Shown here: piece by piece, positions 29,216 through 64,000 of the stretch
Numbering within the stretch: position 1 is the first letter of the stretch
Layout of the letters: the number at the start of each line of letters is the position of its first letter
Program-made: the position numbers and the translations under genes
Notes under the pieces: model-generated
Told to the model about the DNA's origin: nothing
Seen by the model: the letters and a program-made list of their open reading frames with translations, nothing else
The model's database searches: none
Assembly: GCF_902501965.1 (NCBI RefSeq)
Contig: NZ_CABWID010000001.1
Coordinates: forward strand, 1-64,000
DNA from: Collinsella sp. AK_207A
GTDB lineage: Bacteria > Actinomycetota > Coriobacteriia > Coriobacteriales > Coriobacteriaceae
Length of the DNA: 64,000 nucleotides
Direction of reading: 5' to 3'

Positions 29216-30616
<1,401 letters not shown>

Positions 30617-30756
30617 TCATGCAGTATGGATTTGTTTTGTTACGGATGCGTTTCCAGGTTGCGGGAATGTTGCCGAATCGTAACGAACACGTTGCGCAGG
30701 CTCTGAAAAGAACAACAGGTCGAACGCTTTCATACCGTTCGACCTGCGCTATCTCC

Positions 30757-30830
30757 TGGAGCGGGCGACGGGAGTCGAACCCGCCTCATCAGCTTGGAAG
30801 GCTGAGGTTCTACCGATGAACTACGCCCGC
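30757..30830 (-). tRNA. tRNA-Gly (anticodon UCC)
   Basis: The minus strand folds as a tRNA with acceptor stem GCGGGCG/CGCCCGC, anticodon arm CAGCC-TTCCAA-GCTG carrying UCC, and T arm GCGGGTTCGACTCCCGT. Discriminator U and CCA are encoded. It precedes no gene directly; tRNA-Pro lies 5 bases upstream. Confidence 0.92.
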
Positions 30831-30835
30831 GAATA

Positions 30836-30912
30836 TGGTCGGGACGACAGGATTTGAACCTGCGACATCCTGCTCCCAAAGCAGGCGCGCTACCAAACTG
30901 CGCCACGTCCCG
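30836..30912 (-). tRNA. tRNA-Pro (anticodon UGG)
   Basis: The minus strand folds as a 77-nt tRNA with acceptor stem CGGGACG/CGTCCCG and anticodon arm CCTGC-TTTGGGA-GCAGG carrying UGG. The T arm GCAGGTTCAAATCCTGT is present, with discriminator A and an encoded CCA. It probably shares a transcript with the tRNA-Gly 5 bases downstream. Confidence 0.93.
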
Positions 30913-31013
30913 TTGTCCCAAATGCGCAGAGTATTATACGCGAGCATCGGCGCTGGGGCAACGTCTGATTCATCATCTGCCGCCACCCCAAGGTTTCCCG
31001 ACCGCTTGAGAGG

Positions 31014-32093
31014 CTATCGCGTCACGAGCAGGATCTTCCGGGCATCGAAATGCATGCGCAGCACGTCGCCCTCGCGCGGCAGGTCCTCCTCCGCCGTGTC
31101 GACTTTGCTCAACCGCCACGTCAGGCGATTCGTCACACCGGGCAGAGGCGGGTCGAGCTGGATCACGCGCTCGAATCGGGAATCGCTCGTGCGGGCAACG
31201 GTGAGGTTGAAGCCATTGCGCCCGGAGGCGCCGTCGGGGCGCGGGCGCTCCACATGCATATAGCTCGCGCGCACGCCCAGGTAGCGCACGTCATCGGGCA
31301 CGGGACGTCCCGTGTCGAAGGACATGCCCCAGTCGATCGCCTCGACCTCGGTCTCCCCCACCTTCCGCGCGCGGCTGGTGTTCTTGCACCCCGTGAGCCG
31401 CAGCCCGGCAAGCGATCGCGGGCGCTCCACCATGTCGGCGACCGTGCCCACCTCCTCGACGTGCCCGTTGTGCATGACGCAGATGCGCTGGCAGAGCCGG
31501 CAGGCCTCGTCGATGTCGTGACTCACGTAAAGCACGGTGCGCCCCACCACCGAGAAGAGGTCGAGCATGTTCTGCTCGAGGGCGTTCTTCAAGAAGGAAT
31601 CAAGCGCGGAGAAGGGCTCATCGAACATGTAGATGGCCGGGCGCGCGGCGATCATGCGAGCGAGGGCCACGCGCTGCTGCTGACCACCGGACAACCGGGC
31701 CGGGTAGCGGTCTGCGTAATCGGCCATGCCGAAGATCTGGAGGTAGCGACGAGCGAGCTCGGCACGCTGGACCGCGGGGATCCCGACGTCCATGCCGGCG
31801 CAGACGTTATCGGCCACGCTCATGTTGGGAAAGAGCTGGTAATTCTGGAAGAGAAGCGCGGTCTTTCGCTGCTGGGGCGTCAGGTTCACCCCGGCTTTTG
31901 AATCGAAGAAGGTCACCCCGTCCACGACGATGCATCCCTCGTCCGGCGTCTCGACGCCCGCGATGCAGCGAAGCGTGCAGCTCTTGCCGCATCCCGAGGC
32001 ACCGAGCAGCGCCACGCGCTCGTCCCCGGCCTCGAGCTTGATATCGAGGGTGAATCCGGGATAGTGCTTCTTGATATCGAGGCTGAGCGACAT
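31014..32093 (-). CDS. modC: molybdate ABC transporter ATPase
   Basis: ModC powers molybdate uptake. The 359-residue protein has Walker A LLGASGCGKSC, a Q-loop, signature LSGGQQQRVALARM, Walker B YMFDEPFSALD and switch His in VSHDIDEA. A C-terminal extension of about 130 residues, with LGVRASYMHVERP and MHFDARKILLV, fits a TOBE/MOP-like domain. It follows modB by 3 bases and is the last gene of modABC. The specificity rests on its neighbours, since related CysA and FbpC ATPases look similar. Confidence 0.88.
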   Translation of the reverse strand: MSLSLDIKKHYPGFTLDIKLEAGDERVALLGASGCGKSCTLRCIAGVETPDEGCIVVDGVTFFDSKAGVNLTPQQRKTALLFQNYQLFPNMSVADNVCAGMDVGIPAVQRAELARRYLQIFGMADYADRYPARLSGGQQQRVALARMIAARPAIYMFDEPFSALDSFLKNALEQNMLDLFSVVGRTVLYVSHDIDEACRLCQRICVMHNGHVEEVGTVADMVERPRSLAGLRLTGCKNTSRARKVGETEVEAIDWGMSFDTGRPVPDDVRYLGVRASYMHVERPRPDGASGRNGFNLTVARTSDSRFERVIQLDPPLPGVTNRLTWRLSKVDTAEEDLPREGDVLRMHFDARKILLVTR

Positions 32094-32096
32094 GGC

Positions 32097-33641
32097 TCAC
32101 TCGCCCCCTTTCGCATCGGAACCGTTCGAGACATCGGAGCCGCCCAGCAGCTGACGGAGCGCTTCGCGGTCGATGCTCAAGGAGTCGCTGCCCGAAACAT
32201 CCAGGCCGTCGGACACACCCGCGGCAACGCCCGCACCCCCGGCAGCGGCCATCTGCCGACGCTCGGCGCGCGTGAAGCCGCACCGGCGGTACTTCTGGGA
32301 GTGCGCGGTGTAGATGTTGATGAACAGGATCACGAGGAAGCTGAACAGGATCACGACGACGACCCAGAAGAGCGCCACCGCGGTATTGCCGCCCATCCAC
32401 TCGAAGTAGATGGCGATGGGGATGGTCTGCGTGATGCCCGCGTAGTTGCCAGCGAAGAAGAGCGTGCAGCCGAACTCGCCCATGGCGCGCGCGAAGGCGA
32501 GCACCGTGCCCGCGGCGATGGACGGCCACCCGAGCGGCAGCATGAGTTTGCGGAAGATGCGCAGCTCAGACCAGCCGAGCGTGCGCGCTGCGTCGAGCAT
32601 CTGCGGGTCCAGGCCCTCGAAGGCGCCGAGCGCGGTGCGGTACATGAGCGGGAAGCTCACCACGGCGGCCGAGATAATCGCGGCCGGCCAGGTGAACACC
32701 AGGCTGACACCGTGCGCGATGAGCCAGCGGCCGATACTGGTGGACTGACCGAAGAGCATCAGCAGCAGGAAGCCGCAGACCGTGGGAGGCAGCACCATGG
32801 GGATGGTGAACACGGAGTCCAGCAGGCCCTTCAGCCGCGAAGAGGTGCCCATGCAGCGCCACGCAGCAAGGAGGCCGAGCACGAAGGAGAACGCCAGCGC
32901 GATGGCGCTCGTCTTCACCGAGACCCAGAATGGACGGTAGTCGATGCCGCCGAAGAAGGCCTGGGCGCGGTCGGTGAAGGTCGGCGGCTCGGTGGTGGCG
33001 ACCTCGCCGAACGAGACCAGCGCGGCGTCATCGCTCCAAAGCGCGCCGTTGCCGAGGTCGAGGCTCGTGGGATCGGCCGCGGCATTGCTCGCGGTCACGG
33101 TGGCGTACCAGTCCCCGTCCTCGCCCTGGACGCGGAATCGATACGTGTAGTCCCCCTGGGTCACCGATTCATCCGTGGTGAAGACCCAGGGGTCCGCCAC
33201 ATCAGAGAGCAGGGCACCGCCCATGGAGTGGGTCTCGTCCAGACCCTGCAGCATGGTCTTCAAGCTCCTCTGCGCCGAGGCGTCGTCCAGCTTGAACCCC
33301 GCCCGCGCGGCGGCGGACGCATCGACCCAGACGATCACGTTCTCCGGCGTGCGGACGACCACGAGCGTGGAGTCCTCCAGGAGCGGGAAGCGATACCCGT
33401 CGGGTTGGCCCTTCATGGCGCGCGCGGTGCCCTTCGCGTTCCGCTCGAAACCGTTCAAACCGAAATCCACGCCCTCGAGGAGCGCGGAATCCTCTTTGGC
33501 CTGGCGGCCGTCAGCGGTCTCGAACGTCACCGTTGCCGCGAGGGCGGACGTCGGGACCAAAGCTGCGGCGATCGCGAGGACGCAGGCAAGGAACGCGAGC
33601 AACGCGCCCGCGCGGGGAGTTCGAGATGACACGGCACCCAT
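32097..33641 (-). CDS. modB: molybdate permease ModB with N-terminal outside domain
   Basis: The C-terminal about 260 residues are a standard ModB permease with six helices and the ATPase-docking EAA loop (TALGAFEGLDPQMLDAARTL). The start I use is ATG 33641, with GAAGGGA 9 nt upstream. Unlike the usual 220-260-residue ModB, the protein has 514 residues. A signal-like first helix (LLAFLACVLAIAAALVPTSA) is followed by about 200 residues predicted outside, with PLLEDSTLVVVRTPENVIVW and YTYRFRVQGEDGDWYATV. The tail beyond the last helix is also long (about 70 residues, Ala/Gly/Ser-rich). The extra domain is unidentified. Confidence 0.85.
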   Translation of the reverse strand: MGAVSSRTPRAGALLAFLACVLAIAAALVPTSALAATVTFETADGRQAKEDSALLEGVDFGLNGFERNAKGTARAMKGQPDGYRFPLLEDSTLVVVRTPENVIVWVDASAAARAGFKLDDASAQRSLKTMLQGLDETHSMGGALLSDVADPWVFTTDESVTQGDYTYRFRVQGEDGDWYATVTASNAAADPTSLDLGNGALWSDDAALVSFGEVATTEPPTFTDRAQAFFGGIDYRPFWVSVKTSAIALAFSFVLGLLAAWRCMGTSSRLKGLLDSVFTIPMVLPPTVCGFLLLMLFGQSTSIGRWLIAHGVSLVFTWPAAIISAAVVSFPLMYRTALGAFEGLDPQMLDAARTLGWSELRIFRKLMLPLGWPSIAAGTVLAFARAMGEFGCTLFFAGNYAGITQTIPIAIYFEWMGGNTAVALFWVVVVILFSFLVILFINIYTAHSQKYRRCGFTRAERRQMAAAGGAGVAAGVSDGLDVSGSDSLSIDREALRQLLGGSDVSNGSDAKGGE

Positions 33642-33670
33642 GGGTAACAATCCCTTCGCTTCCAGATAAC

Positions 33671-33711
33671 GCAAAAGGCGCGGGAAGCCAGCTTCCGGCT
33701 CACCCGCGCCT
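33671..33711 (-). terminator. attenuating hairpin between modA and modB
   Basis: On the minus strand a perfect 9-bp stem, AGGCGCGGG with CCCGCGCCT, is followed by TTTTGC about 70 nt after the modA stop. It is placed to trim transcription after the binding-protein gene. Such partial terminators raise the ratio of binding protein to permease in ABC operons. Confidence 0.7.
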
Positions 33712-33742
33712 CAATTCTACTGTCTACTATCGAGCGAAACGC

Positions 33743-34615
33743 TTACGCGGAGAGCTCGAAGCCGTACTTGGACCAGATCTTCTGCGCATCCTTGTTGGTC
33801 AGGCAGAAGTCGAGGAACTTATCGGCCTCATCGGCGTTCTGGGACGAAGCTGCCACGGCGCCCGGGTACACGATGGGCTTGTGGGAATCCTCGGGGCAGA
33901 CGAACGCCTCGACGATGCCGTCGTAGCGAAAGATGTCGGAGCTGTACACGAAGCCCGCGGCGCAGTCGCCCGTGGAGACGTACTTGGCGGCAGTACCGAC
34001 CTTGTCGGCGAGCGCGACCTTGTCGGCGATCTCGGGCGCGTACTCGCCGTCGTCGCCCTCGGTGCCGGTGTAGAGCCCCACGGAGGCAAGCGCCTGGTTG
34101 GCGTACTTGCCGGCAGGCACGGTCTTGGCATCGCCGATGGCGATCTTGCCGTCGATCGTGGCAACGTCGCCGATGGCGGTCACGGTGACATCGGAACCGT
34201 CGGCCTTCACGATCACGAGGTCGTTCGTGAACATGTCGGTACGGGTGGACTCGTCCACGAGCGAGGCGTCCACGGCGTCGTCCATGGTGCCCTTGGAAGC
34301 GGTGATGAGCGCGTCGACGGCGGCGCCGGCCTTCATCTGCTCAACGAGGTCGCCGGAAGCCTTGAACTGGGTGTCGGCGAAGGTGGTACCGGTCTGGTCG
34401 GTGTAGAGCTGCTGGACCTCGGGCAGGGCCTTCTCAAGCGAGTTGGCGGCAAAGATCTGGAGCTCCACGCCGGAAGCGGCGGCAGAACCGGCAGCGGAGC
34501 CCTTGTTGGCCGTGGAGCCGGCATCCTTGGCGGCGTTGTTGCTGCTGCAGCCGGCCAGCGCGACGGCGGCGGTGGTGCCAGCGGTGGCGATGAAGGTACG
34601 ACGCGTTACGTTCAT
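33743..34615 (-). CDS. modA: molybdate-binding lipoprotein ModA
   Basis: ModA captures molybdate or tungstate outside the cell. The 290-residue protein has a twin-Arg-like lipoprotein signal (MNVTRRTFIATAGTTAAVAL then AGCSSNN, lipobox LAGC). The binding fold shows FAANSLEKALPEVQQLY, FKASGDLVEQMKAGA and SAFDG-like GYVYSSD counterparts (AAGFVYSSDIFRY). It is the first gene of modABC and is preceded by a TATAAT promoter and a palindromic operator. Confidence 0.9.
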   Translation of the reverse strand: MNVTRRTFIATAGTTAAVALAGCSSNNAAKDAGSTANKGSAAGSAAASGVELQIFAANSLEKALPEVQQLYTDQTGTTFADTQFKASGDLVEQMKAGAAVDALITASKGTMDDAVDASLVDESTRTDMFTNDLVIVKADGSDVTVTAIGDVATIDGKIAIGDAKTVPAGKYANQALASVGLYTGTEGDDGEYAPEIADKVALADKVGTAAKYVSTGDCAAGFVYSSDIFRYDGIVEAFVCPEDSHKPIVYPGAVAASSQNADEADKFLDFCLTNKDAQKIWSKYGFELSA

Positions 34616-34675
34616 GAAGACTTCCTTCCCTGGAGCTTACGGGGCGGCCCTTCCCACCCCTATTCTTCGGTGAGT

Positions 34676-34696
34676 ATTATATTCTCCCGAGAATAT
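34676..34696 (-). promoter_or_regulatory. modA promoter with palindromic operator
   Basis: A -10 hexamer TATAAT (minus strand, 34676-34681) lies about 60 nt before the modA start. It overlaps a perfect palindrome, ATATTCTC-CC-GAGAATAT, at 34679-34696, with a further half-site GAGTAT at 34672-34677. A -35 is weak (TTCAAA, 16 bp upstream). The same half-site pair occurs at the moeA promoter and at 63576-63593. Confidence 0.65.
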
Positions 34697-34753
34697 TTTT
34701 GAAGAGGGGATCCGAGCCGTAGAAACGTGGCGCCGATTTGAAAGCCGAAAGAC

Positions 34754-35437
34754 CTACCCCAAGGTATGGATCATGAGCGCCAGCACGAGGGTGAGCAGAC
34801 CGGAGACCGAGATCGCCAGACCGCTCATGGCGCCCTCGAGCTCTCCCATCTGCGCGGCGCGGACCGTGCCCACCGCATGACTGCTCGCACCGATGGCCAC
34901 GCCCGCGGCGATGGGGCTCTTCACCCGGAAAAGGCGGGTCAGCGTGGGCGCGAGCATGGAGCCCATGATGCCCGAAACGATCACCGCGGCCACGGTCACG
35001 GACTGGACGCCACCGAGCGTGCTGGTGATGCCGATGGCGATGGGCGTGGTCACGGACTTGGCCACGGTGGAAATGGCGATGGAATCAGAGAGGCCCATGA
35101 TCTCGCAGAGCCCCCAAGCCGAGACCATCGAGGTGATCGAACCGGCCAGGCATCCCGCGAGGATGGGGATGAAGTGCTTCTTGAGCACCGTTATCTGACG
35201 GAAGATGGAGTACGCGAGCACCGCCGTGGCCGGCCCCAGGAAGCTGGAGATGACCTTGGCCCCCTCCTGATAGGTGGCGAGCGGGATGTGAAAGACCACG
35301 AGGAAGATGATGATGAAGGCCACCGAGACCAGCAACGGATTCAAGAGCGGTGAGTGAACGCGCCGGTTGAGCGCGACGGCCACTTGGAAGGCCGCGATCG
35401 AGATGACGACGCCGAAGATGACGTGCAGGGCTTCCAT
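34754..35437 (-). CDS. lrgB: LrgB-family membrane protein
   Basis: LrgB proteins work with LrgA in holin-like control of murein hydrolases or, in other species, in small-metabolite transport. The 227-residue protein is almost all membrane helices, with the family block VAKSVTTPIAIGITSTLGGV and a C-terminal AIGASSHAVGTVRAAQMGE. Length is typical (about 230). It follows the lrgA-like gene by 4 bases, so they form one operon. Confidence 0.9.
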   Translation of the reverse strand: MEALHVIFGVVISIAAFQVAVALNRRVHSPLLNPLLVSVAFIIIFLVVFHIPLATYQEGAKVISSFLGPATAVLAYSIFRQITVLKKHFIPILAGCLAGSITSMVSAWGLCEIMGLSDSIAISTVAKSVTTPIAIGITSTLGGVQSVTVAAVIVSGIMGSMLAPTLTRLFRVKSPIAAGVAIGASSHAVGTVRAAQMGELEGAMSGLAISVSGLLTLVLALMIHTLG

Positions 35438-35441
35438 GGCA

Positions 35442-36671
35442 CTAGGCCTCCTTGGGGGACGAGGACGATTCGGTGGGCGAAGCCGAGACGGGCATGCCGT
35501 GACCGTGCTTCGCCATGACGTTCATGACCGTCGCCACGGTAAACGAGGTGACGAAGAAGACGAGGACGGTGGTGATAAGGCACACCGCCAGGAGCTTGGC
35601 GAGGTTGGGCGCGATGAGGTCGAAGCTCCCCATGATGGAGACGGCCGCCGGCACGAAGAAGACCGCCATGTGGTCGAGGAGGAAGTCGGCGGCCAGGCTG
35701 ATGGACTCCATGCGGATGACGCCCGAGAGCAGGAACACGAGCAGGAGCACCATGGCGACGATGTTTCCCGGGATGCCGATGGGAACGAGCGCCGCGATCT
35801 TCTCACCCGTCAGGCACACGGCGTAGATGAGCAACAGCTGCATGCTGATGCGGAAGGCGCGCGCGGCGAAGCTGCGCGGGGCGGCGGGGGCATCGAAGCC
35901 CAGGAGGTGCGAGAACGCTTCGGGCACGCGCAGCGGAGAGGCGAGGGTGGGCACGCGCCGCTCGTCGGCCATGCTCGCCAGGTGCTCCAGGAGCTCGGCG
36001 CGCTCCTCCGCGCTGAGCGCGTGCCCCGGCTTCGCGGCGGCGCGGGCCTGCAGACGCTCGACCGCGGATTCGTCGTCGAGTTCGGCACGCTCGCGCTCTT
36101 CCTCACGGGCCGACAGGGCGCGCGCGATCGGGCGAAACTCGGAGCACTCCCGCCCAGCGGGGGCGGCGGACATGGCGGGTGCCGGTGCGGCGCCCTCCTC
36201 CAGGAGTCCGGTCTCCACGGAGACGGACGCGGTCCCCTCGTACGTGCGAGGAGCTGCAGCTTCGGCCGCCTGCTCGGCCTCCGCCTGCGCGGCGAGGTCC
36301 TCGGCGCTCATATAGCCGAGCTCCACCAGGATCCGCCGCACGTCGGCGTGGCGGAAGACGAGCTTCCCGTCGTGGACCACGCAGCGGATGCCGTGGGAGA
36401 GCAGCATGCCGGCGAGGGCGTGCATCTCCCGCTCATCTCCGAAGGAGACGGCGTCCCAGATAATCCCCTGGTTGAAGATGTCCGGATGCGCGCCGTCCAG
36501 GCGCGCGATCGCCTGATCGATGCTCATGCCGGCGCCGAAGCGCTCCTCGGCACCGGTGCCGAGCTCCTCTGCCAGATGGCGCCCGGCACGCTGCATCTCC
36601 GCGTCGCTCAGCCGAGAACCGCTCGCGGTACCCGAAGAACCCATATCACCCTTCTTGCCAAAAAGGCCCAC
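35442..36671 (-). CDS. lrgA: LrgA/CidA-family protein with large cytoplasmic domain
   Basis: The C-terminal about 110 residues (about 285-395) are a CidA/LrgA membrane domain with four helices (ISMQLLLIYAVCLTGEKIAA, IGIPGNIVAMVLLLVFLLSG). The protein starts at GTG 36671, with GGGGAG 6 nt upstream, and has 409 residues, about 280 more than a usual LrgA. That N-terminal part is soluble. A compact piece (about 20-125, QAIARLDGAHPDIFNQGIIW, GMLLSHGIRCVVHDGKLVF) is followed by a Glu/Ala/Arg-rich helical linker. I do not recognise the domain; it could sense a signal that gates the LrgAB pair (inference). Confidence 0.85.
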   Translation of the reverse strand: MGLFGKKGDMGSSGTASGSRLSDAEMQRAGRHLAEELGTGAEERFGAGMSIDQAIARLDGAHPDIFNQGIIWDAVSFGDEREMHALAGMLLSHGIRCVVHDGKLVFRHADVRRILVELGYMSAEDLAAQAEAEQAAEAAAPRTYEGTASVSVETGLLEEGAAPAPAMSAAPAGRECSEFRPIARALSAREEERERAELDDESAVERLQARAAAKPGHALSAEERAELLEHLASMADERRVPTLASPLRVPEAFSHLLGFDAPAAPRSFAARAFRISMQLLLIYAVCLTGEKIAALVPIGIPGNIVAMVLLLVFLLSGVIRMESISLAADFLLDHMAVFFVPAAVSIMGSFDLIAPNLAKLLAVCLITTVLVFFVTSFTVATVMNVMAKHGHGMPVSASPTESSSSPKEA

Positions 36672-36715
36672 GCTCTACTCCCCTTTCCTATCCGCACCGG
36701 GCGAACCCCTGCGGG

Positions 36716-36741
36716 CACAAAATCGCCCGCACAAAGCGGGC
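36716..36741 (-). terminator. small hairpin upstream of lrgA
   Basis: On the minus strand GCCCGC-TTTGT-GCGGGC is followed by GATTTTGT. It sits between the moaB/mogA terminator and the lrgA start, about 45 nt before the GTG. It could be a backup terminator for the moeA operon or a leader hairpin of lrgAB. Confidence 0.45.
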
Positions 36742-36784
36742 GCCACAACCATCTCGGATTGAACCGATTGCCATCTCCACTATA

Positions 36785-36821
36785 GAAAAGTCGCGCGGCC
36801 CGCCCCAGCGGAACCGCGCGA
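36785..36821 (-). terminator. intrinsic terminator of the moeA operon
   Basis: On the minus strand a perfect 8-bp stem, TCGCGCGG with CCGCGCGA, is followed by CTTTTCT. It lies about 50 nt after the moaB/mogA stop and fits an intrinsic terminator. Confidence 0.75.
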
Positions 36822-36870
36822 TACATGGAGTTGAAACAATTTCACCCGAAGGGGAAACGTTCTCGTGCAC

Positions 36871-37338
36871 TCAGTGCCCGCCGCCGGCAGCCATCTTCTT
36901 GGCATGCTCGAACTGGTCGGACACCGCCTCCCAGCTCTCGCGAGCCGCCTTGGTGGAGCCGGGGAAGTTGACCACGAGCGCGCGGCTGCGCTGCATGCTG
37001 ACGGCACGGCTGAGCATGGCGCGGCGCGTCTTGCCCATGGAGTACGCGCGGATCGCCTCGGCGATGCCGGGAACGTCGCGGTCGCAGGTGTCGCGCGTGG
37101 CCTCGGGCGTCACGTCGCGCGGCGAGAGGCCGGTGCCGCCGCAGGTGATGACCACGTCCACGCCCTCATCGTCCACGGCCCTCACGATGGAGCCGGCGAT
37201 GAAGGGGCGCTCGTCGGGCACCACCACATGGCTGACGACCTCCCAGCCCGCGGCGCGGATGAGTTCCTCGAGTGCGGCGCCGGCCTCGTCCTCGGCGAGA
37301 CTGCGCGTGTCGCTGCACGTGATAATCGCGAACTTCAT
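36871..37338 (-). CDS. MoaB/MogA-family molybdopterin adenylyltransferase
   Basis: The enzyme adenylates molybdopterin before metal insertion by MoeA. The 155-residue protein shows the family motifs CSDTRSLAEDEAG, DVVITCGGTGLSPRDVTPEA and VVNFPGST, with active-site Asp residues expected in the GGTG and RDVT regions. Whether it is better named MoaB or Mog cannot be decided by eye. It follows moeA by about 50 bases and shares its terminator. Confidence 0.9.
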   Translation of the reverse strand: MKFAIITCSDTRSLAEDEAGAALEELIRAAGWEVVSHVVVPDERPFIAGSIVRAVDDEGVDVVITCGGTGLSPRDVTPEATRDTCDRDVPGIAEAIRAYSMGKTRRAMLSRAVSMQRSRALVVNFPGSTKAARESWEAVSDQFEHAKKMAAGGGH

Positions 37339-37388
37339 GATGAGATGCTCCTCCTACGAGTCTGACAACGGGGACCTGACCGGCACCA

Positions 37389-38648
37389 CTATAGAACGGT
37401 GCCCTCGGGAATGTCGATGCGCACGACCTCCGCCATGCCGCCGGCAGGAATTCCCTCGAAGCCGTCAGCAACCTTGAGCAGGCAGTTGGCGCGCTGGAGC
37501 GTGCCCAGGAGCGCGGAGTTCTGGCTCGGTGCCTCGGTAACGACGAGCTCGCCCGCCGCATCGCGCTCGACGTGCGCACGATTGTAGAACCGGCGCGCCT
37601 GACGCTTCTTGATCTCGCGATCCACGCGCGCCATCTGAACGGGACGGTCGAAGGCGCTGAATCCGCGCATCTTGCGAATCGCGGGGCGCGCGAGCATCTC
37701 GAAGCCGACCACGGCAGCGGCCGGATTGCCGGAAAGCCCCAGGAACGGCTTGCCCGCGAGCAGGCCGAAGGTGATGGCCTTACCGGGTTTCATGGAAATG
37801 TGGTCGAAAAGCACCTGGCCCTCGCGCTCCACCAGGGCCGTCACGTAATCGTAGTCGCCCGCGGAAGCACCACCGCTCGTGACGACGAAGTCGCAGGTCT
37901 CAGCCGCTTTGAGCACGAGTTGCTCGATGGCTACAGGGTCATCTGGCGCGATACCGAAGAACTCCGGTTCAGCTCCAGCCGTCACGGTAGCGGCCATGAG
38001 CGCGGCGGAGTTGGCGTCGCGGATCTGTCCGCGCGCGGGCACCTGGTCGGGCGAGACGAGCTCGGTGCCGAGCGCGATGATGCCGACGCGCGGAGCCGCG
38101 TGCACGGTGACCTCGGACGCACCGGCAGACGCGAGCAGCCCGCAGCCGGCAGGGGTCACCACATCGCCGGCGCGGAGCACGGCCTCGCCGGCGTGGGCCT
38201 CGAGACCCGCCACGCGGATGTTCTCGCCCACCTTGGCGGGCGCGGAGAACCTGATGCGAGAGCCCTCGTTGCCATCCCCCTCGAGCACCTGCACGACCTC
38301 GTACTTCACCACGGCGTCGGCGCCCTCGGGAACGGGTGCGCCCGTCATGATGCGCACCGCATGGCCAGGCTCCACCCTATCGGAGAAGACGTGGCCGGCG
38401 GCCTCATGGCCCACCACGTCGAGCTCCACGGGAGCGCCCTCTGAGGCACCCGTCAGATCCGCGGCCACCACGGCGTATCCGTCCATGGCGCTGTTGGCGA
38501 ACGGAGACAGGTCGATATCGGTTACCACGTCCTCGGCGAGCGGCAGGCCGGCGGCCTTCCAGACGGGAACGCGAACCCTCGGCATCTGCCCCACATGATC
38601 GAGCACGATGTCGCGCGCCTCCTCGACCAGAATCATGTTCTCCGCCAT
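37389..38648 (-). CDS. moeA: molybdopterin molybdenumtransferase MoeA
   Basis: MoeA inserts molybdate into adenylated molybdopterin. I choose ATG 38648 (MAENMILVEEARDIVL), with GGGAGG 6 nt upstream. The 419-residue protein has the N-terminal domain with LSPFANSAMDGYAV, the MoCF-like core (VVTSGGASAGDYDYV, FLGLSGNPAAAVVGFE) and a C-terminal beta domain. It heads a two-gene unit with moaB/mogA. Its promoter overlaps a palindrome like that at modA. Confidence 0.92.
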   Translation of the reverse strand: MAENMILVEEARDIVLDHVGQMPRVRVPVWKAAGLPLAEDVVTDIDLSPFANSAMDGYAVVAADLTGASEGAPVELDVVGHEAAGHVFSDRVEPGHAVRIMTGAPVPEGADAVVKYEVVQVLEGDGNEGSRIRFSAPAKVGENIRVAGLEAHAGEAVLRAGDVVTPAGCGLLASAGASEVTVHAAPRVGIIALGTELVSPDQVPARGQIRDANSAALMAATVTAGAEPEFFGIAPDDPVAIEQLVLKAAETCDFVVTSGGASAGDYDYVTALVEREGQVLFDHISMKPGKAITFGLLAGKPFLGLSGNPAAAVVGFEMLARPAIRKMRGFSAFDRPVQMARVDREIKKRQARRFYNRAHVERDAAGELVVTEAPSQNSALLGTLQRANCLLKVADGFEGIPAGGMAEVVRIDIPEGTVL

Positions 38649-38670
38649 GGGCTTCCTCCCTTTCCGAAAC

Positions 38671-38713
38671 ACTATGCTCGGGTGAGTATAGTCTCATACA
38701 CGACCTTCCGTAA
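38671..38713 (-). promoter_or_regulatory. moeA promoter with palindromic operator
   Basis: On the minus strand TTACGG (-35, 38708-38713) and TATACT (-10, 38685-38690) are 17 bp apart. The -10 lies inside an inverted repeat of half-sites ACTATGCTC (38671-38679) and GAGTATAGT (38684-38692), 4 bp apart, matching in 8 of 9 pairs. It shares the CTC...GAG core with the modA operator. Confidence 0.65.
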
Positions 38714-38819
38714 CGTTATCGCGAAACCTCAACGCCATAACGGGCAGAGGTTTTCTGCGGCAGCGAATCGCCGCGTATAATGGCGCGCGGACACAGGTCG
38801 AAGGGAACGGTGGAGCGGA

Positions 38820-40184
38820 ATGGCTGTTGCACGAGAGAACGGGCGGAACCGAGCGATCATCCCCGACGCGGTGGCCGCGGCGCGGTCTTACCTCAAGACG
38901 AGCGAACGCCAGGTTGCCACCGACACCGTGCGCGACGTGCGGAACCTCGCACAGAGCACGCGGCTCCTCCTGCTCGTCGAACTCGTTTCGGTGCTCATGG
39001 GCATCGCCGCCTGGGCGTTCCTCCTCTCGCTCGACGTGGTCACAGATTTCCGGGAGGGCCATCGCCTGGTGTTCATCCTGCTGCCCGCCGTCGGCGTCGT
39101 CACCGCCTGGCTCTACCGGAACTATGGCCTCCAATCGCGCCGGGGCAACAACCTCGTCATCGACAGCGCGCTCTCCCCGCGCCTCATCCACGCCCGCATG
39201 GCCGTCCTCACGTTCCTGTGCTCCGTCGCCACCCACCTGACGGGCGGCTCCGCCGGTCGTGAGGGGGCGGCGGTGCAGATGGGCGGCACCATCGCGAGCA
39301 ACGTGAGCCATGCCGCGCACCTGGGCGGGCACGACCACCACGACCTCATGCTCGGCGGCATCAGCTCCGCCTTCGGCGCCGTCTTCGGCACCCCGCTCGC
39401 CGGCGCCTTCTTCGGCATGGAGATGTGCTACGTGGGCAAGCTCGACTACAGCTCCGCCCTCTACTGCCTGGCCGCCTCGTTCACCGGCAACGCCGTGGCG
39501 CAGGCGCTCGGCACTCAACACGGGGGACACGCGATCGTCGCCGTCCCCGCGCTCTCCCCGGCAAGCATCGTGCTCACCGTAGCCGCCGCCGTAGCATTTG
39601 GCCTCACGGCGCGCTTGTTCGCCGCCTCCATCCGCGCCGTCAAGCGAATCTACGCCACGCGCATCACCAACTACCTGGTCGCCGCCCTCGTGGGCGCGCT
39701 CGTGGTCCTCGGCGCATACGCCGCCCTCAACGCCTGGCAATACGCCGGCCTCTCCGAATGGCTCGTCGGCGCCGGGTTCGAAGGCAAGACGACCCTCGCC
39801 GACCCGCTCCTGAAGCTCGTGCTCACCGCCCTCACGCTCGGCGCCGGCTTCCAGGGCGGCGAGGTCACCCCGCTCTTCGGTATCGGCGCGGCGCTCGGCG
39901 GGTGGTTCGGCCAGCTCGCGGGGATGGACCCGAGCTTCCTCGCGGCACTCGGCATGATCGGCGTCTTCGGCGCCGCCCTGAACGTCCCCATCACGACGAT
40001 CCTCATGGGCCTCGACCTCTTCGGAGGAGACGCCGCAGTCTACTACGTCATCGTCGCGTTCGTGGCCTACCTCGTAGTCGGCCACAGCGGCGTCTACCCC
40101 GCGCAGCGCATCGTGAGCCCCAAGCGCCGCTCGCTCGCGGGCGACGCGGGCGAGACGGTGGAGGCGGCGCTCAAGGGCGAGTGA
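38820..40184 (+). CDS. CLC-F-type fluoride/proton antiporter
   Basis: A 454-residue CLC-family membrane protein. The chloride-type GSGIP loop is replaced by RRGNNLVID. The key segments are THLTGGSAGREGAAVQMGG, with the external gating Glu in GREG, and QGGEVTPLFGIGAALGG. These are the forms found in fluoride-exporting CLC-F proteins rather than chloride CLCs, so I assign fluoride efflux with moderate confidence. ATG 38820 has a GGTGGAG site, and TATAAT at 38775-38780 gives a leader of only about 30 nt. That leaves no room for a fluoride riboswitch. Divergent from moeA. Confidence 0.8.
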   Translation: MAVARENGRNRAIIPDAVAAARSYLKTSERQVATDTVRDVRNLAQSTRLLLLVELVSVLMGIAAWAFLLSLDVVTDFREGHRLVFILLPAVGVVTAWLYRNYGLQSRRGNNLVIDSALSPRLIHARMAVLTFLCSVATHLTGGSAGREGAAVQMGGTIASNVSHAAHLGGHDHHDLMLGGISSAFGAVFGTPLAGAFFGMEMCYVGKLDYSSALYCLAASFTGNAVAQALGTQHGGHAIVAVPALSPASIVLTVAAAVAFGLTARLFAASIRAVKRIYATRITNYLVAALVGALVVLGAYAALNAWQYAGLSEWLVGAGFEGKTTLADPLLKLVLTALTLGAGFQGGEVTPLFGIGAALGGWFGQLAGMDPSFLAALGMIGVFGAALNVPITTILMGLDLFGGDAAVYYVIVAFVAYLVVGHSGVYPAQRIVSPKRRSLAGDAGETVEAALKGE

Positions 40185-40209
40185 TCGCAAGCTCTCCAGT
40201 GAGGAGCGC

Positions 40210-40431
40210 GGTCTCCGGCGGACGGAAGGGGCCGCTGTTCGGCCGAGCCGGTTCTCGCGAAACTGGAAAACCCCGCGCCGAAACCGCTGGTACGGGTAGA
40301 ACGAAGATGTCAAAGAATCTTGATTCGTTAACGTTTCCGCTACCCGTACCAGCGGTTTCGGTGCGGGGTTTCCTCAGTTCGCTCGAAGGCGGGCTTGGCC
40401 GAACAGCGGCCCCTTCCGTCCGCCGGAGACC
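40210..40431. repeat. 222-bp imperfect inverted repeat
   Basis: Two arms of about 90 bases (40210-40299 and 40340-40431) are inverted copies around a 40-nt centre. The outer 35 bases of each arm and the inner 22 bases pair perfectly, while the middle of the arms has diverged with small gaps. There is no coding content and no clear target duplication. It may be a miniature transposable element or a structured RNA. The rest of 40185-40510 holds no gene. Confidence 0.85.
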
Positions 40432-40510
40432 ACAGCCACCAGGACGCCCATTGCAGGTACCATCAGAATGACCGAGTAACAAGGCAGACGATCAGACCGC
40501 TGGGGGACAC

Positions 40511-41461
40511 ATGCGCACCACGACCATAATGTATACGAGCCGTGACGGGCACTCGACCATCCGAGCGCTTATCTGGGAAGCCGACGAGACCGCGACGCAG
40601 CAGCACCGTGGCGTGGTCCAGATCGTGCACGGGATGTCCGAGAACGTGGAGCGCTATGCGGAGTTCGCCGAGCGCTTGGTGAAAGCGGGGTTCACCGTCT
40701 GCGCGAACGACCATGTGGGCCATGGCAAGAGCGCTCGCGATGAGAACGAGCTCGGGCACATGCCTCTGCATGGAGGCGAGGATGTGCTCGTGGAGGACGT
40801 CCATGCGCTCAGGACGGCGGTACTCGAGCGCGTTGGCGGCGGCTCGGCCGTGCCGTACGTGATCTTCGGTCACTCCATGGGGAGCTTCGTCACGCGCGTG
40901 TACCTTACGCGCTACGCGTTCGGCGTGAACGCCGCGGTGGTCTGCGGCACCGGCCAGCAGCCCGTCGCACTCACCTGCGCGGGCATCGCACTCACCTCGC
41001 TCATCGCCCGTGTACGCGGGGAGCGGCATCGAAGCGGGCTCGTGGACAGCATGGGGGCGGGCGGGTTCTCGCGCGCCATTCCGGACGCCCGGACTCCGGT
41101 GGATTGGATCTCGACGGACCGCGCCGTGGTGGATGAGTACCTTGCCGACCCCGCCTGCGGACAGCTCTTCACGGTGGGTGCGTACCATACGCTGTCCTCG
41201 CTCGCGCGTGATGCCCAACGCGCCAAGCTCACCGCGCGCATCCCCAAGGGGCTGCCGATGCTCTTCATCGCGGGTGACCAAGACCCGGTGGGTGACTTTG
41301 GCCGAGGGGTTGAGCGCGCGGCGGGCCAATACCTCCGCGTGGGGCTGGAAGATGTTGAGGTCAAGCTCTACCAGGGATATCGGCATGAGATCTTAAACGA
41401 GCCCTGCAAACAGCAGGTGTGCGAAGACGTGCTCGAGTGGCTGCAAGGGCACGGTCTCTAG
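40511..41461 (+). CDS. alpha/beta hydrolase, lysophospholipase-like
   Basis: A 316-residue serine hydrolase of the monoacylglycerol-lipase/lysophospholipase group. It shows the oxyanion region VQIVHGMSENVERY, ANDHVGHGKS, the nucleophile elbow VIFGHSMGSFVTR (Ser), the acid in AGDQDPVGDFG and the His in GYRHEILNE. No signal peptide is seen, so it is probably cytoplasmic. It is a single gene after the inverted repeat. The substrate is unknown; lipid esters are likely from the family. Confidence 0.85.
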   Translation: MRTTTIMYTSRDGHSTIRALIWEADETATQQHRGVVQIVHGMSENVERYAEFAERLVKAGFTVCANDHVGHGKSARDENELGHMPLHGGEDVLVEDVHALRTAVLERVGGGSAVPYVIFGHSMGSFVTRVYLTRYAFGVNAAVVCGTGQQPVALTCAGIALTSLIARVRGERHRSGLVDSMGAGGFSRAIPDARTPVDWISTDRAVVDEYLADPACGQLFTVGAYHTLSSLARDAQRAKLTARIPKGLPMLFIAGDQDPVGDFGRGVERAAGQYLRVGLEDVEVKLYQGYRHEILNEPCKQQVCEDVLEWLQGHGL

Positions 41462-41488
41462 GGAGCGGAGTATACCCGAGTGCGAATG

Positions 41489-42823
41489 CTACGACGCCTT
41501 GGGCGCGTTGCCGGAACGGTCGCGTTCGCTCTGCTCCACGCGCCATTGCTCCCAGCCGCGCCCCGCGGTGTGGTAGAACGCCCCGCGCTCGAGGCCCTCG
41601 GGCAGGTAGCGTTGCTCCACCCAGCCCTCCGGGTAGTCGTGGGGATACAGATAGGGGCCGTAGGCGTCGCTACCGGGGCGGTGCCGGTCACGTAGATGGT
41701 TGGGCACCTCGCGGGCGCCGCTCATCCTCACGTCGGCGAGCGCGGCGTCGATGGCGGACTCGGCGGCGTTGCTCTTAGGCGCGAGAGCCACGTAGATAGC
41801 CGCCTGAGCGAGGTTGATGCGGCACTCGGGATAGCCGATGACCTCAGCGGACTTGAACGCCGCCTCGGCCACGAGCAGTGCCTGGGGATCAGCGTTGCCC
41901 ACGTCCTCGCTCGCCTGGATCATGATGCGCCGCGCGATGAACTTGGGGTCCTCGCCGGCGTCGATCATGCGAGCGAGCCAGTAGACGGCGGCGTCGGGAT
42001 CGCTGCCGCGCATGGACTTGATGAACGCCGAGATGATGTCGTAGTGCATATCCCCGGACTTGTCATAGGTGAGCCCCCGACGCGGGTTTGCCACCTGGAC
42101 GTCCTCGAGGGTGATAGCGCGCCGGCCGTCCTCCCCCGCCTCGCGTGAAACCGCGATCTGACTAGAGAGCTCGAGGGTGGTCAGCGCGGCGCGGGCATCT
42201 CCCGCCGCCAAAGAGCACACGGCGGACATCGTGTCCTCGTCCATCGAATAGGCGCCGGCAAGGCCCTGCGGAGCCTCGAGCGCGCGATGCAGCAGACGGC
42301 GGACGTCATCGTCGCCCAGATGCTCGAGCTCGACCACCCGGCTGCGGGAGAGCAGGGCGGAGTTGACCTCGAAGTACGGGTTCTCGGTGGTGGCGCCGAT
42401 GAGAACCACCGTGCGGTTCTCCACGGCGTGCAGCAGGGCATCCTGCTGCGAGCGCGAGAACCGGTGGATCTCGTCCACGAAGAGGATGGTCCGGCGATCG
42501 AACTGCATGAGGCGGTGGCGCGCCTCCTCAATCTCGCGCCGCAGGTCCTTCACCGTGCCGGTGATGGCGGAGACCTCGACGAACTCGCTCCGGGTGTGCT
42601 CGGCAACGATATGCGCGAGCGTGGTCTTGCCCGTACCCGCCGGCCCGTAGAGAATCACGCTCGAGAGCACGTCGTGTTCGATCGCGGAGCGCAACCAAGA
42701 CCCCGGCCCCACGGCCTTATCCTGGCCCACGTACTCGTCGAGGGTCGTGGGGCGCATGCGCACGGCAAGGGGCGCGTTCCGGAGCTCACGCTCGCGGTTC
42801 TGTTGCGAAAACAAGGTATCCAT
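41489..42823 (-). CDS. rarA: replication-associated recombination protein RarA
   Basis: RarA (MgsA) is an AAA+ ATPase related to clamp loaders that acts at stalled forks. The 444-residue protein begins with the family pattern PLAVRMRPTTLDEYVGQ. It has Walker A ILYGPAGTGKTTLAHI, Walker B TILFVDEIHRF, sensor 1 LIGATTENPYFEV and a C-terminal tetramerisation region with YPHDYPEGWVEQRYLP. All motifs are intact. It is convergent with the hydrolase gene, 27 bases apart. Confidence 0.93.
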   Translation of the reverse strand: MDTLFSQQNRERELRNAPLAVRMRPTTLDEYVGQDKAVGPGSWLRSAIEHDVLSSVILYGPAGTGKTTLAHIVAEHTRSEFVEVSAITGTVKDLRREIEEARHRLMQFDRRTILFVDEIHRFSRSQQDALLHAVENRTVVLIGATTENPYFEVNSALLSRSRVVELEHLGDDDVRRLLHRALEAPQGLAGAYSMDEDTMSAVCSLAAGDARAALTTLELSSQIAVSREAGEDGRRAITLEDVQVANPRRGLTYDKSGDMHYDIISAFIKSMRGSDPDAAVYWLARMIDAGEDPKFIARRIMIQASEDVGNADPQALLVAEAAFKSAEVIGYPECRINLAQAAIYVALAPKSNAAESAIDAALADVRMSGAREVPNHLRDRHRPGSDAYGPYLYPHDYPEGWVEQRYLPEGLERGAFYHTAGRGWEQWRVEQSERDRSGNAPKAS

Positions 42824-42865
42824 GTCACGTACTATAGCACATGTGTTCGTATCTTCACGGAACGG

Positions 42866-44098
42866 CTACCGCTCGTTGATATAGGTTCGGCGCGGAAAGT
42901 GGAGCTCCGGGAAGAGCGTGGTGGCAAGCTCGGTGAAGTAGCCGTCCGTCATGCTCGCGATGTAATCGACCACCGTCTGGTCAAGATCCCCCTCCCAATC
43001 GTAGATCTTGTCGTAGTAGGCGAGCTGGCGCTCGATGCGGCGGATATGATGGCGGAAGATGTAGCTGTTCTCGTCGCCGGCGCGCAGATCCCCCAGGAAA
43101 TGCTCGTACATGAGGTTGAACGCGTACCTGAGCTCGTCCGCGTGCTCGCCCTCGACCCCGCCCGCCCGGTAGATCTTGTCGTAGTTCTCAGCCTTGGCAC
43201 GGCGGATCTCGGCGAACATCTCCTCGCTCATCTCGATATGGTCCTTGCCGTAGCTGTGCTCGATGATATCGACCGAAGCGTGGCTGAGGATCCAGGAGTT
43301 GTAGCGCCCGCCAAGGCCGTCCTCGAAGGCGTCGTCGGTGAGGAGTCCCGCTTCGATGGCGTCTTGGCGATCGCGCCCCACGTAGGCGATGATGTCGGAG
43401 ATGCGGACGACGCAGCCCTCGAGCGTCATGGGTCGCAGCCGACCGATCGCAAGGTCGCCCTGCTCGTAGCAATCCTCCACGATACGGTCGAACTCGGGGA
43501 AGTCCCGCAGTCCCGAGAGGTGGAAGACGCGCTGCTCGTACTCGCCGTTATGCGTGAGGGCTCCGTCGAGCGTCTGCAGGGTGATGTTTCGCCCATAGAG
43601 GGTGTCCATAACCCGCACCGAGTGCACGTTGTGGAAGAAGGAGCGGCCCGTGCGGGCATGGAAGATATCGTTCAAGCAGCGCTCGCCCGCGTGCCCGAAA
43701 GGCGTGTGCCCCAGATCGTGGCCGAGTCCGATCGCCTCGATGAGGTCGCCGTTGAGACCGAGCGCGTAACCGATATCGCGTGCGATACGAGCCACGAGCT
43801 GCACGTGGAGTCCGCGGCGCGAGAGGTCGTCGTTGCTGCGGAAGCTGAAGACCTGGGTCTTGCCGTTGTAGCGGTTGTACGCGGGCAGGTGCAGGATCTT
43901 CTCGGTGTCGCGCACGAAGGAGGGGCGCCAGAGGCTCGAGGCGTCCTGTTCGCGCGGCTCACGCCGAAGCGCTTGTGAGTCATCGGTGCGAAACGGATTC
44001 CTCCACCCCGCGGCACGATCTGCCTCCATACGGGCCAGGATCTCGGGGGAAAGGGTATCGGGCAAGTCGCTCAGGCGCGCTCTCAGCTTCTCGTTCAT
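42866..44098 (-). CDS. dGTPase-like HD-domain phosphohydrolase
   Basis: The protein belongs to the dGTP triphosphohydrolase family that cleaves dNTPs to nucleosides and triphosphate. I choose ATG 44098 (MNEKLRARLSDLPDTL), with GAGAGGA 7 nt upstream. The 410 residues show RLxxKTQVF-like RYNGKTQVFSF, RRGLHVQLVARIARDI, the metal-binding HD pair in AIGLGHDLGHTPFGHAGE, and a later D in CVVRISDIIAYVGRD. Substrate preference cannot be read from the sequence. It lies 42 bases upstream of rarA, probably co-transcribed. Confidence 0.88.
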   Translation of the reverse strand: MNEKLRARLSDLPDTLSPEILARMEADRAAGWRNPFRTDDSQALRREPREQDASSLWRPSFVRDTEKILHLPAYNRYNGKTQVFSFRSNDDLSRRGLHVQLVARIARDIGYALGLNGDLIEAIGLGHDLGHTPFGHAGERCLNDIFHARTGRSFFHNVHSVRVMDTLYGRNITLQTLDGALTHNGEYEQRVFHLSGLRDFPEFDRIVEDCYEQGDLAIGRLRPMTLEGCVVRISDIIAYVGRDRQDAIEAGLLTDDAFEDGLGGRYNSWILSHASVDIIEHSYGKDHIEMSEEMFAEIRRAKAENYDKIYRAGGVEGEHADELRYAFNLMYEHFLGDLRAGDENSYIFRHHIRRIERQLAYYDKIYDWEGDLDQTVVDYIASMTDGYFTELATTLFPELHFPRRTYINER

Positions 44099-44164
44099 GC
44101 GGGTTCCTCTCATATGATCTTTCTTGCCGCCATCTTCGCACGCTGCGAGGACACAGCCTCCCGG

Positions 44165-44737
44165 CTATCCGGTCATGGTCTGTGAAGCGAAGGCGTACAG
44201 CCACCACGCGAGACCGACCGCCCAGAGAGGGACCACGAAGGGGATGAGCGGCAGGTTGCGACGGTGCGAAACCAGGCACCCCACACCGAGGAGCACGAGC
44301 CCGCCCGCAAAGGCGGCAAACCCGCGCACCGGATCGGCCAGCACGAGGGCGAAGAGGAGCTTGGCATCCCCCATGCCGATGCCCGCCTCGCGGCGCAGCC
44401 GGCGCCAGACGAGCTCGACCGCCACCAGCAGGGCGGTTACCGCAGCGGCGGCAACGAGGTTGCGAGCCAGATCGCCCCAGAGGGGGTCGGGGGCGGTCAG
44501 TCCCCAATGGAACCAATCGAGCAGGCGGAAGAGCGCGGGATGCAGGGCGACGAGCGCCGCAACGAGAACCAGGGCGATGGCGAGCGGGTTGGGCAGGCGC
44601 CGCTGCCGGACATCGATCACCGCGGCTACGACGAGAAGTGCCAGGAACGGCCATTCGGGGCCACCCAGGAAGACCGCAGTCACGAAGACCGCGGTCGCGC
44701 GGAGCATGGCTTCGATGAAGAAAACAAGCGCATCCAT
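44165..44737 (-). CDS. A24-type prepilin peptidase
   Basis: A 190-residue membrane protein with about six helices and the two aspartates of the prepilin/preflagellin peptidase family A24. One is in AVIDVRQRRLPNPLA and the other in IGMGDAKLLFAL (the GxGD motif). It lacks the N-terminal methylase domain of full PilD. No pilin or type II secretion gene is in this window, so its substrates lie elsewhere. Its start overlaps the preceding ORF by 58 bases. Confidence 0.85.
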   Translation of the reverse strand: MDALVFFIEAMLRATAVFVTAVFLGGPEWPFLALLVVAAVIDVRQRRLPNPLAIALVLVAALVALHPALFRLLDWFHWGLTAPDPLWGDLARNLVAAAAVTALLVAVELVWRRLRREAGIGMGDAKLLFALVLADPVRGFAAFAGGLVLLGVGCLVSHRRNLPLIPFVVPLWAVGLAWWLYAFASQTMTG

Positions 44738-45159
44738 GCAGACCCTCCTCCCCTCTCGGCCGCGCCCAAGACAGGCAGCCGCGATTCGCTAGCGAATCGG
44801 GGCAGGCGCTGCCACGCCACGAGGCGCTTCCGGACGTCGATATCGCAGCGGTGGTACCACTCGAAGACCACGAAGGACGCGATGAGCAGCTGGGTGCTCC
44901 CCGGAAAGCGTGAGCCCGCCGCGCAGACGGCCGCGTTCAGTGCCTCGATATCCCCGCGCTGGAAGAAGTCATGCTCGATCACATCCTCGCGAACGGTGCA
45001 CTCGAACTCGGAATCGGTCTTGTCCACACCGTCGAGCATCTGGTAGACGCGAACCAAGTTCCCCTGCACCTGGGCGCTGAGACCGTGCGAACCATCGAGC
45101 AGGTTGCTGCCGAAAGCCCCGTCCCCGCCGCTCGCATGTCCCGCGGGTGCATCGTCCAT
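44680..45159 (-). CDS. hypothetical protein
   Basis: A 159-residue ORF starts at ATG 45159, with GGGGAGG 5 nt upstream. Its centre looks protein-like (VQGNLVRVYQMLDGVDKTDS, TVREDVIEHDFFQRGDIEAL, ASFVVFEWYHRCDIDVRKRL). No signal peptide or known motif is seen. The last about 20 codons overlap the start of the prepilin peptidase gene in another frame, so either that overlap is real coupling or the C-terminus is not native. Family unknown. Confidence 0.5.
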   Translation of the reverse strand: MDDAPAGHASGGDGAFGSNLLDGSHGLSAQVQGNLVRVYQMLDGVDKTDSEFECTVREDVIEHDFFQRGDIEALNAAVCAAGSRFPGSTQLLIASFVVFEWYHRCDIDVRKRLVAWQRLPRFASESRLPVLGAAERGGGSAWMRLFSSSKPCSARPRSS

Positions 45160-45233
45160 GGGAACCTCCCCGTCGCCATACTGGTCCTGGTTTGTGATGG
45201 TAGCACCCCAGTGGAAAGCGGAAGCGAATCCTT

Positions 45234-45390
45234 ATGAAACCGCTCGTAGCGATCGAACTCCAATGCTCGGAGGAGGAGCCGGGGGCGTTTCTTCTTTACC
45301 CGGGGTACCGTGAGCTGTTCACCGAGGCAGGAGCTGAGCTGCTGGAAGTGCCGCCCGTGCTGGGGGCGGACGAGCTGCGCCGCCCCACAC
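45234..45390 (+). pseudogene. 5' fragment of a C26 glutamine amidotransferase-like gene
   Basis: From ATG 45234 the frame reads MKPLVAIELQCSEEEPGAFL and on to YPGYRELFTEAGAELLEVPP. This is the start of a PuuD-like gamma-glutamyl hydrolase (class I amidotransferase, family C26). After about 50 codons the similarity ends at the 3' end of the opposite-strand ATP-grasp gene. The catalytic Cys and His domain is absent. It is a broken remnant; its junction near 45390 marks an old rearrangement. Confidence 0.5.
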
Positions 45391-45396
45391 GACCCG

Positions 45397-63534: not shown

Positions 63535-63593
63535 TTGATTTGGTCGCAGGCGTTCGTATAGTACACGTCCGGTTTTATTCTCACTCGAGTATA
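63535..63593 (+). promoter_or_regulatory. promoter and palindromic operator at window end
   Basis: TTGATT (63535-63540) and TATAGT (63557-63562) are 16 bp apart. About 14 bp after the -10 lies the inverted repeat TATTCTC-ACTC-GAGTATA (63576-63593), followed by AAAGGGG and ATG 63604. The core equals those at modA and moeA. The rest of 63318-63534 shows no gene. Confidence 0.65.
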
Positions 63594-63601
63594 AAGGGGA
63601 C

Positions 63602-64000
63602 ACATGGCACGCGGAGCCGACCGAAGCCTCGACCTCGCGGCAGGACGGCACCGACTTCAACTTCGAGGAGCTCGCCGCTTTGAAGCCGCAGGTCATCTTC
63701 GACTCCAAAGACACCCTGCGCGACAAGGCCGCCGAGGTCGGCATCCCCGTCGTGAACTGCCTGTTCGCCACCTTCGACGAGATGAAGAAGTCCATCGAGC
63801 TCTCCGACACCATCTTTGGTGGCAACGCCCCCAAGATCGCTGACAAGTACAACAAGGAGCTCACGAAGACGGTCGACGAGGTCGAGAAGAAGACGAAGGA
63901 TCTCTCCGACTCCGATAGGCCCAAGGTCATGCACGGCAACTCCGTGTACACGCTGACCATCGACGGCACGTCGCCTTCGGGCCCCGCGTACCCTCCCGTG
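63602..64000 (+). pseudogene. fragment of a TroA/MolA-like metal-binding protein gene
   Basis: In one frame the sequence reads FNFEELAALKPQVIFDSKD, GIPVVNCLFATFDEMKKSIE and PKVMHGNSVYTLTIDGT. This is the middle of a class III periplasmic-type binding protein (Fe-siderophore, B12 or molybdate type). The ATG at 63604 that follows the promoter is in another frame, and the upstream frame has no start codon, so the signal peptide and first lobe are missing. The last codons before the window end no longer look native. I infer a 5' deletion that fused the old promoter to the gene middle. The operator suggests molybdate or tungstate as ligand. Confidence 0.55.

Follow-up and report, generated by a model that had tools for sequence, protein, structure and literature searches.

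A palindrome present in the promoters of modA, of moeA and of a decayed Peripla_BP_2 gene in Collinsella sp. AK_207A is supported, on sequence comparison, as an operator of a molybdenum/tungsten regulon in the Coriobacteriales that covers the -10 region, because the motif is conserved at modA and sits before other molybdenum-linked genes. The explanation that we favor, with a probability of about 0.8, is that the motif controls this regulon and is bound by a stand-alone ModE-type repressor of 109 amino acids. In the literature searched, the Coriobacteriales operator, its targets and the link to a one-domain ModE appear to be undescribed; a search for the motif in the Coriobacteriia found no paper, which, given its limited journal coverage, is weak evidence. 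Single-domain ModE as such has been known in Desulfovibrio since 2004, with a different predicted motif. What is provided here is a concrete operator, a list of targets and a candidate regulator for molybdenum control in the Coriobacteriales, which include gut bacteria rich in molybdenum enzymes.

The window, that is, the whole stretch of 64,000 nucleotides that was analyzed, contains three inverted repeats at the positions claimed by the earlier note and, as also claimed there, each lies at a -10 box, overlapping a -10-like hexamer at modA, at moeA and at 63576 (in the last case TATAAA, at 63590-63595). Matches to TATNCTC-N(2-4)-GAGNATA number three in these 64 kb, against 0.0015 expected under an order-1 Markov model. 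Since this pattern was picked after the sites were known, a stronger and independent test is provided by a matrix trained solely on sites of other genomes and then run over the window. Its three top positions are the reported sites (23.5 to 33.7 bits; Table 1), whereas 20 simulated windows of 64 kb yielded no score above 10.6. The conserved form of the motif is ATTATTCTC-N4-GAGAATAAT. Exact copies of this N4 motif occur twice in the whole genome (2.12 Mb in 24 contigs), both inside the window, for a genome-wide expectation of 0.016, and a reversed control motif has no copy in the same 2.12 Mb; a genome-wide search allowing three mismatches is uninformative (256 matches to the motif versus 215 to the control).

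The repeat at modA had initially been read as TATTCTC-(2)-GAGAATA. These letters are real, but their two-base spacing is a by-product and the conserved register is N4: the N2 register (34680-34695) was rejected because it scores 14.2 with the matrix, against 25.1 for N4, and because N4 is the one conserved in relatives. The GAATATAAT half of the modA site is also found in L065 and L068, and sites in relatives, when read along transcription, follow TATTCTC-N4-GAGnATAAT, in which the final hexamer is often the -10 box TATAAT. On the modA side there is a possible second operator copy, the score of which is by itself no better than that of the best chance match. Tandem copies at modA occur in relatives as well, 17 bp apart in L068, 19 bp in L171 and L172, and about 33 bp in L046 to L060 and L073.

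Table 1. Putative operators, -10-like boxes and associated genes in the window (scores are matrix scores in bits).
Feature	Positions	Strand	Remarks
modC, ABC ATPase	31014..32093	-	TOBE domain not detected
modB, permease	32097..33638	-	BPD_transp_1 at residues 252-442
modA, molybdate-binding protein	33743..34615	-	SBP_bac_11; orthologues in 50/61 relatives
Possible second, weaker operator copy	34661..34678	-	2 mismatches; score 10.6; 17 bp downstream, on the modA side
modA -10-like box TATAAT	34676..34681	-	Overlaps the operator; GAG/GAA-TATAAT recurs in relatives
modA operator, N4 register	34678..34695	-	TATTCTC-GGGA-GAATATAAT; one mismatch; GAATATA(AT) on promoter side; score 25.1
mogA/moaB-like gene	36871..37338	-	MoCF_biosynth
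moeA	37389..38648	-	MoeA_N, MoCF_biosynth, MoeA_C
moeA operator TATACTC-ACCC-GAGCATA	38673..38690	-	Exact motif; score 23.5; 24 bp lie between it and the moeA ATG
moeA -10-like box TATACT	38685..38690	-	Inside the operator; predicted from sequence
Operator TATTCTC-ACTC-GAGTATA before relic gene	63576..63593	+	Exact motif; score 33.7, the best in the window
Peripla_BP_2 substrate-binding protein relic	63605..63970	+	Peripla_BP_2 match; truncated at both ends

Among the genes behind these sites, modB encodes some 250 residues with a signal-like start ahead of its permease domain, and the homologues in relatives are long too; an HTH-like string (RYLEAKGLLP) before modB was rejected as non-coding, the start of the gene being taken as 33638. 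Here mogA is separated from modA by LrgA/LrgB-like genes (34754-36671, minus strand); in many other Collinsella mogA adjoins modA. A ClC channel gene (38820-40184) is divergent from moeA, with which it has the operator-bearing intergenic region in common, and the same pairing recurs in several other Collinsella; the ClC gene may be co-regulated. As for the third site, described in the earlier note as the promoter of a metal-binding protein, the operator stands but the gene does not, for it is a truncated relic whose reading frame differs from that of the nearby ATG. It spans about 120 residues, and homologues that are 61-65% identical form open frames of 389-400 amino acids in relatives. Most plausibly, the relic is what is left of a second metal transporter gene that has kept an intact operator. 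In G037 an intact homologue adjoins FecCD-like and ATPase genes, with a molbindin gene nearby, an arrangement that would fit a MolABC-like transporter for molybdate or tungstate.

The comparative analysis reveals that the motif is not placed at random genome-wide and that it is conserved at modA in relatives. The earlier proposal of a molybdate/tungstate-regulon operator is hence not refuted, and it gains support from this conservation and from the other genes that the motif precedes. Exact copies are present in 30 of 61 relatives, mostly as one copy per genome in Collinsella, with control matches in two genomes. Most Collinsella loci have sites upstream of modA, with TATAAT in the promoter-side half, and the motif at modA is kept in Collinsella and in related genera; it also precedes moeA in L174 and in several Collinsella. 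Across the order, the exact motif is found in 71 of 301 genomes, chiefly in the same family as Collinsella and in family f2 and almost never in family f5, and the Coriobacteriales targets comprise, besides modA, the genes moeA, moaA and moaE, a molybdopterin oxidoreductase and FecCD/Peripla_BP_2 transporters. Thirteen exact sites were examined in the Collinsella family outside the genus itself, and every one of them is at a molybdenum-linked gene (modA, moeA, moaA, moaE or a FecCD permease). The corresponding figure in family f2 is about 13 of 25 (modA, a MoeA-like gene, moaE and a molybdopterin oxidoreductase); the remaining sites, roughly half, have no evident molybdenum link, some of them falling within coding sequence, and may be due to chance. 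In G044 (family f9), a Peripla_BP_2 gene and a FecCD-like permease gene are divergent, and two near-exact copies lie in the space between them. An exact motif between a SNF2 helicase-like gene and a second gene is kept in two genomes of a single genus (L197:3041 and L198:3008), with no evident molybdenum link.

The position of the -10 box within one half of the repeat at most modA sites would fit a motif that is merely a strong shared promoter (GAG-TATAAT) and not a regulatory site. However, the other half is equally conserved and the exact motif occurs about once per genome, at molybdenum genes rather than at promoters in general, which makes this reading very improbable. Equally slight is the chance that the repeat acts as a transcribed RNA hairpin, either an attenuator or a riboswitch, instead of as a DNA operator. 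A stem of 7-9 bp with a four-base loop could indeed form, but the hairpin was rejected because its variable stem position shows no covariation, pairing in 35 of 67 sites when 34.1 are expected by independence. The sites, moreover, overlap -10 boxes and therefore lie at or upstream of the transcription start, and the only Rfam matches at 30000-46000 are two tRNAs. The latter result also led us to reject the Moco riboswitch, which is known to precede genes of molybdate transport and of the cofactor (PMC2408646).

Turning to the protein that would bind the operator, the earlier note had placed the regulator outside the window, and the best candidate is indeed encoded on contig C14 (C14:123799-124125, minus strand, 109 amino acids), with mntP- and guaB-like neighbors. 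The candidate has HTH_1 only, that is, the ModE DNA-binding domain alone, as in single-domain ModE, and no Mop/TOBE (molbindin) domains were found in it. Its best NCBIfam match is ModE_repress (1.7e-9), which remains under the curated cut-off of that family (TIGR00637; 37.6 versus 98.5 bits). None of the 61 genomes has a ModE_repress match over the cut-off; most have a sub-threshold match, typically to a stand-alone protein of about 110 amino acids with one HTH_1 domain. An AlphaFold2 model based on 20 Coriobacteriales sequences has a pLDDT of 96, and a fold search against the PDB returns ModE at ranks 1 to 10 (E. coli ModE and Agrobacterium 2IJL), ahead of every LysR regulator, with TM-scores of 0.69-0.77 by query length. 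As modeled, the candidate has the winged HTH of the ModE N-terminus.

The gene for this protein is linked to the motif at several loci. In genus g39 (L206-L210) it and modABC are divergent and flank an operator that is exact or has one mismatch, L207 showing modA only. L211 and L212 have the same divergent order with weaker sites, L337 (Slackia) has the same gene order, and in L214 and L215 the regulator gene lies downstream of moeA-mogA. In Collinsella, it is found beside mntP and guaB and not beside mod genes, and has no operator site of its own. Within the Collinsella family, 51 genomes encode the regulator and 41 of these contain the exact motif, which occurs in 2 of the 13 genomes lacking the regulator (Fisher p 2.5e-5, with no correction for phylogeny). 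Moreover, modA, motif and regulator are jointly absent from G025, G026, G031, G034, G146 and genus g24, and in G021, which has no modA, the regulator alone is kept. Genomes with modA but without the regulator constitute a natural experiment, the outcome of which is mixed: in family f3 (G038, G047) the motif is absent as well and in G179 the sites have decayed, whereas G158 keeps a good site. The draft genomes G004, G149 and G158 have a site at modA, but relaxing the search brought up no convincing match to the regulator in them (best E 0.004), an absence that might possibly be due to assembly gaps.

We infer binding by the 109-aa protein, repression and a response to molybdenum as follows. The stand-alone ModE-type winged HTH would bind the palindrome as a dimer, at operators that cover the -10 regions of modABC, moeA-mogA and the decayed Peripla_BP_2 gene. 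One operator half contains the -10 box, and therefore access of RNA polymerase should be blocked once the protein is bound, with the result that uptake and cofactor genes would be repressed by occlusion when molybdenum is sufficient. ModE of E. coli represses modA in this manner. It is nonetheless conceivable, although we hold it to be rather unlikely, that the palindrome is a molybdenum operator bound by another transcription factor, for instance a HTH_17-like protein as in G037. Such a factor would account for the persistence of modA sites in the three genomes where no ModE-type protein was detected, and in G037 an excisionase-like HTH gene (the domain being read by eye) adjoins the FecCD/Peripla_BP_2 and molbindin genes. 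Against it, L206-L210 show the ModE-type gene linked to the motif, with which this gene also co-occurs across the family, and the source genome shows, again by eye, only an apparent 3' remnant of a G037-like HTH gene.

The candidate ModE-type repressor invites comparison with known systems. E. coli ModE likewise has a winged HTH fold and controls modA and molybdenum-cofactor genes, and the motif precedes molybdate uptake and cofactor genes of this type, at which binding by the candidate is conjectural. E. coli ModE differs in carrying tandem C-terminal molbindin (Mop/TOBE) domains, which the candidate lacks. The initial remark that the motif does not look like a classical ModE site is correct letter by letter, but it overlooks the register and the ModE type of the candidate: the E. 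coli sites of modA (GTTATATTGTCGCCTACATAAC) and moaA (CTATATACATGATTACATAG), taken from NC_000913.3, are both TAT-N12-ATA, and TAT-TCTCNNNNGAGA-ATA has the same spacing. With only three bases per half coinciding, the shared register is no more than suggestive. Scored with the Coriobacteriales matrix, the E. coli sites fall below zero; the inner bases are CTC/GAG in the Coriobacteriales and AT-rich in E. coli, and the outer CG of the latter is missing. Similarly, the published E. coli consensus, ATCGNTATATA-N6-TATATANCGAT (PMC545781), agrees with the Coriobacteriales motif at the TAT/ATA positions alone. In G140 (family f5), a 28-bp perfect palindrome, AGCGTTATACTC-AGAA-GAGTATAACGCT (L202:2968-2985), is found between molybdenum-hydroxylase-type genes that include yqeC, in a cluster that also holds modABC and moaA; it joins an E. 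coli-like outer CGTTAT to an inner ACTC as in the Coriobacteriales operator.

The single-domain ModE of Desulfovibrio resembles the candidate in being a ModE DNA-binding domain alone; it is a predicted regulator of molybdate transport with an unclear sensing mechanism (Rodionov et al. 2004, PMC545781). Its predicted motif, CGGTCACG-N14-CGTGACCG, belongs to a group in which mod clusters carry an integrase-MOP fusion gene (PMC545781), and is not the one conserved at Coriobacteriales mod genes. A putative ModE of Agrobacterium tumefaciens (PDB 2IJL), single-domain with about 110 modeled residues and among the top folds, is also the best PDB sequence match of the candidate (2.2e-11 in a profile search), to which it is approximately 21% identical. 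The question raised in 2004 for Desulfovibrio, that is, how ModE responds to molybdenum without a sensor domain, can now be tested on short and well-defined promoters.

A partner molbindin was rejected as the general sensor. The source genome has one such protein, a di-Mop protein on contig C10 (L239, G000:C10:66430-66798) with an apparently N-terminally truncated first domain, but a search for a separate Mop protein in other Collinsella found none, TOBE being either absent or confined to frames of 370-450 amino acids, so that a molbindin partner is not general in the genus. We give even odds to the proposal that the one-domain ModE senses metal or cofactor without a molbindin domain across the order, either through an oxyanion bound on the HTH itself or through a molybdenum-handling partner protein. 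The C10 di-Mop gene adjoins what seems to be the 3' end of an opposite-strand gene, in an arrangement that resembles the intact one of G037 (L352:6072-7707), and the locus, as judged from its sequence, suggests the product of an internal deletion. Finally, in family f5 (L095:862-1815, and also L096 and L098) the ModE-type HTH is part of a longer protein, being fused in L095 to a MobA-like nucleotidyltransferase domain, with a hydantoinase-like gene adjoining.
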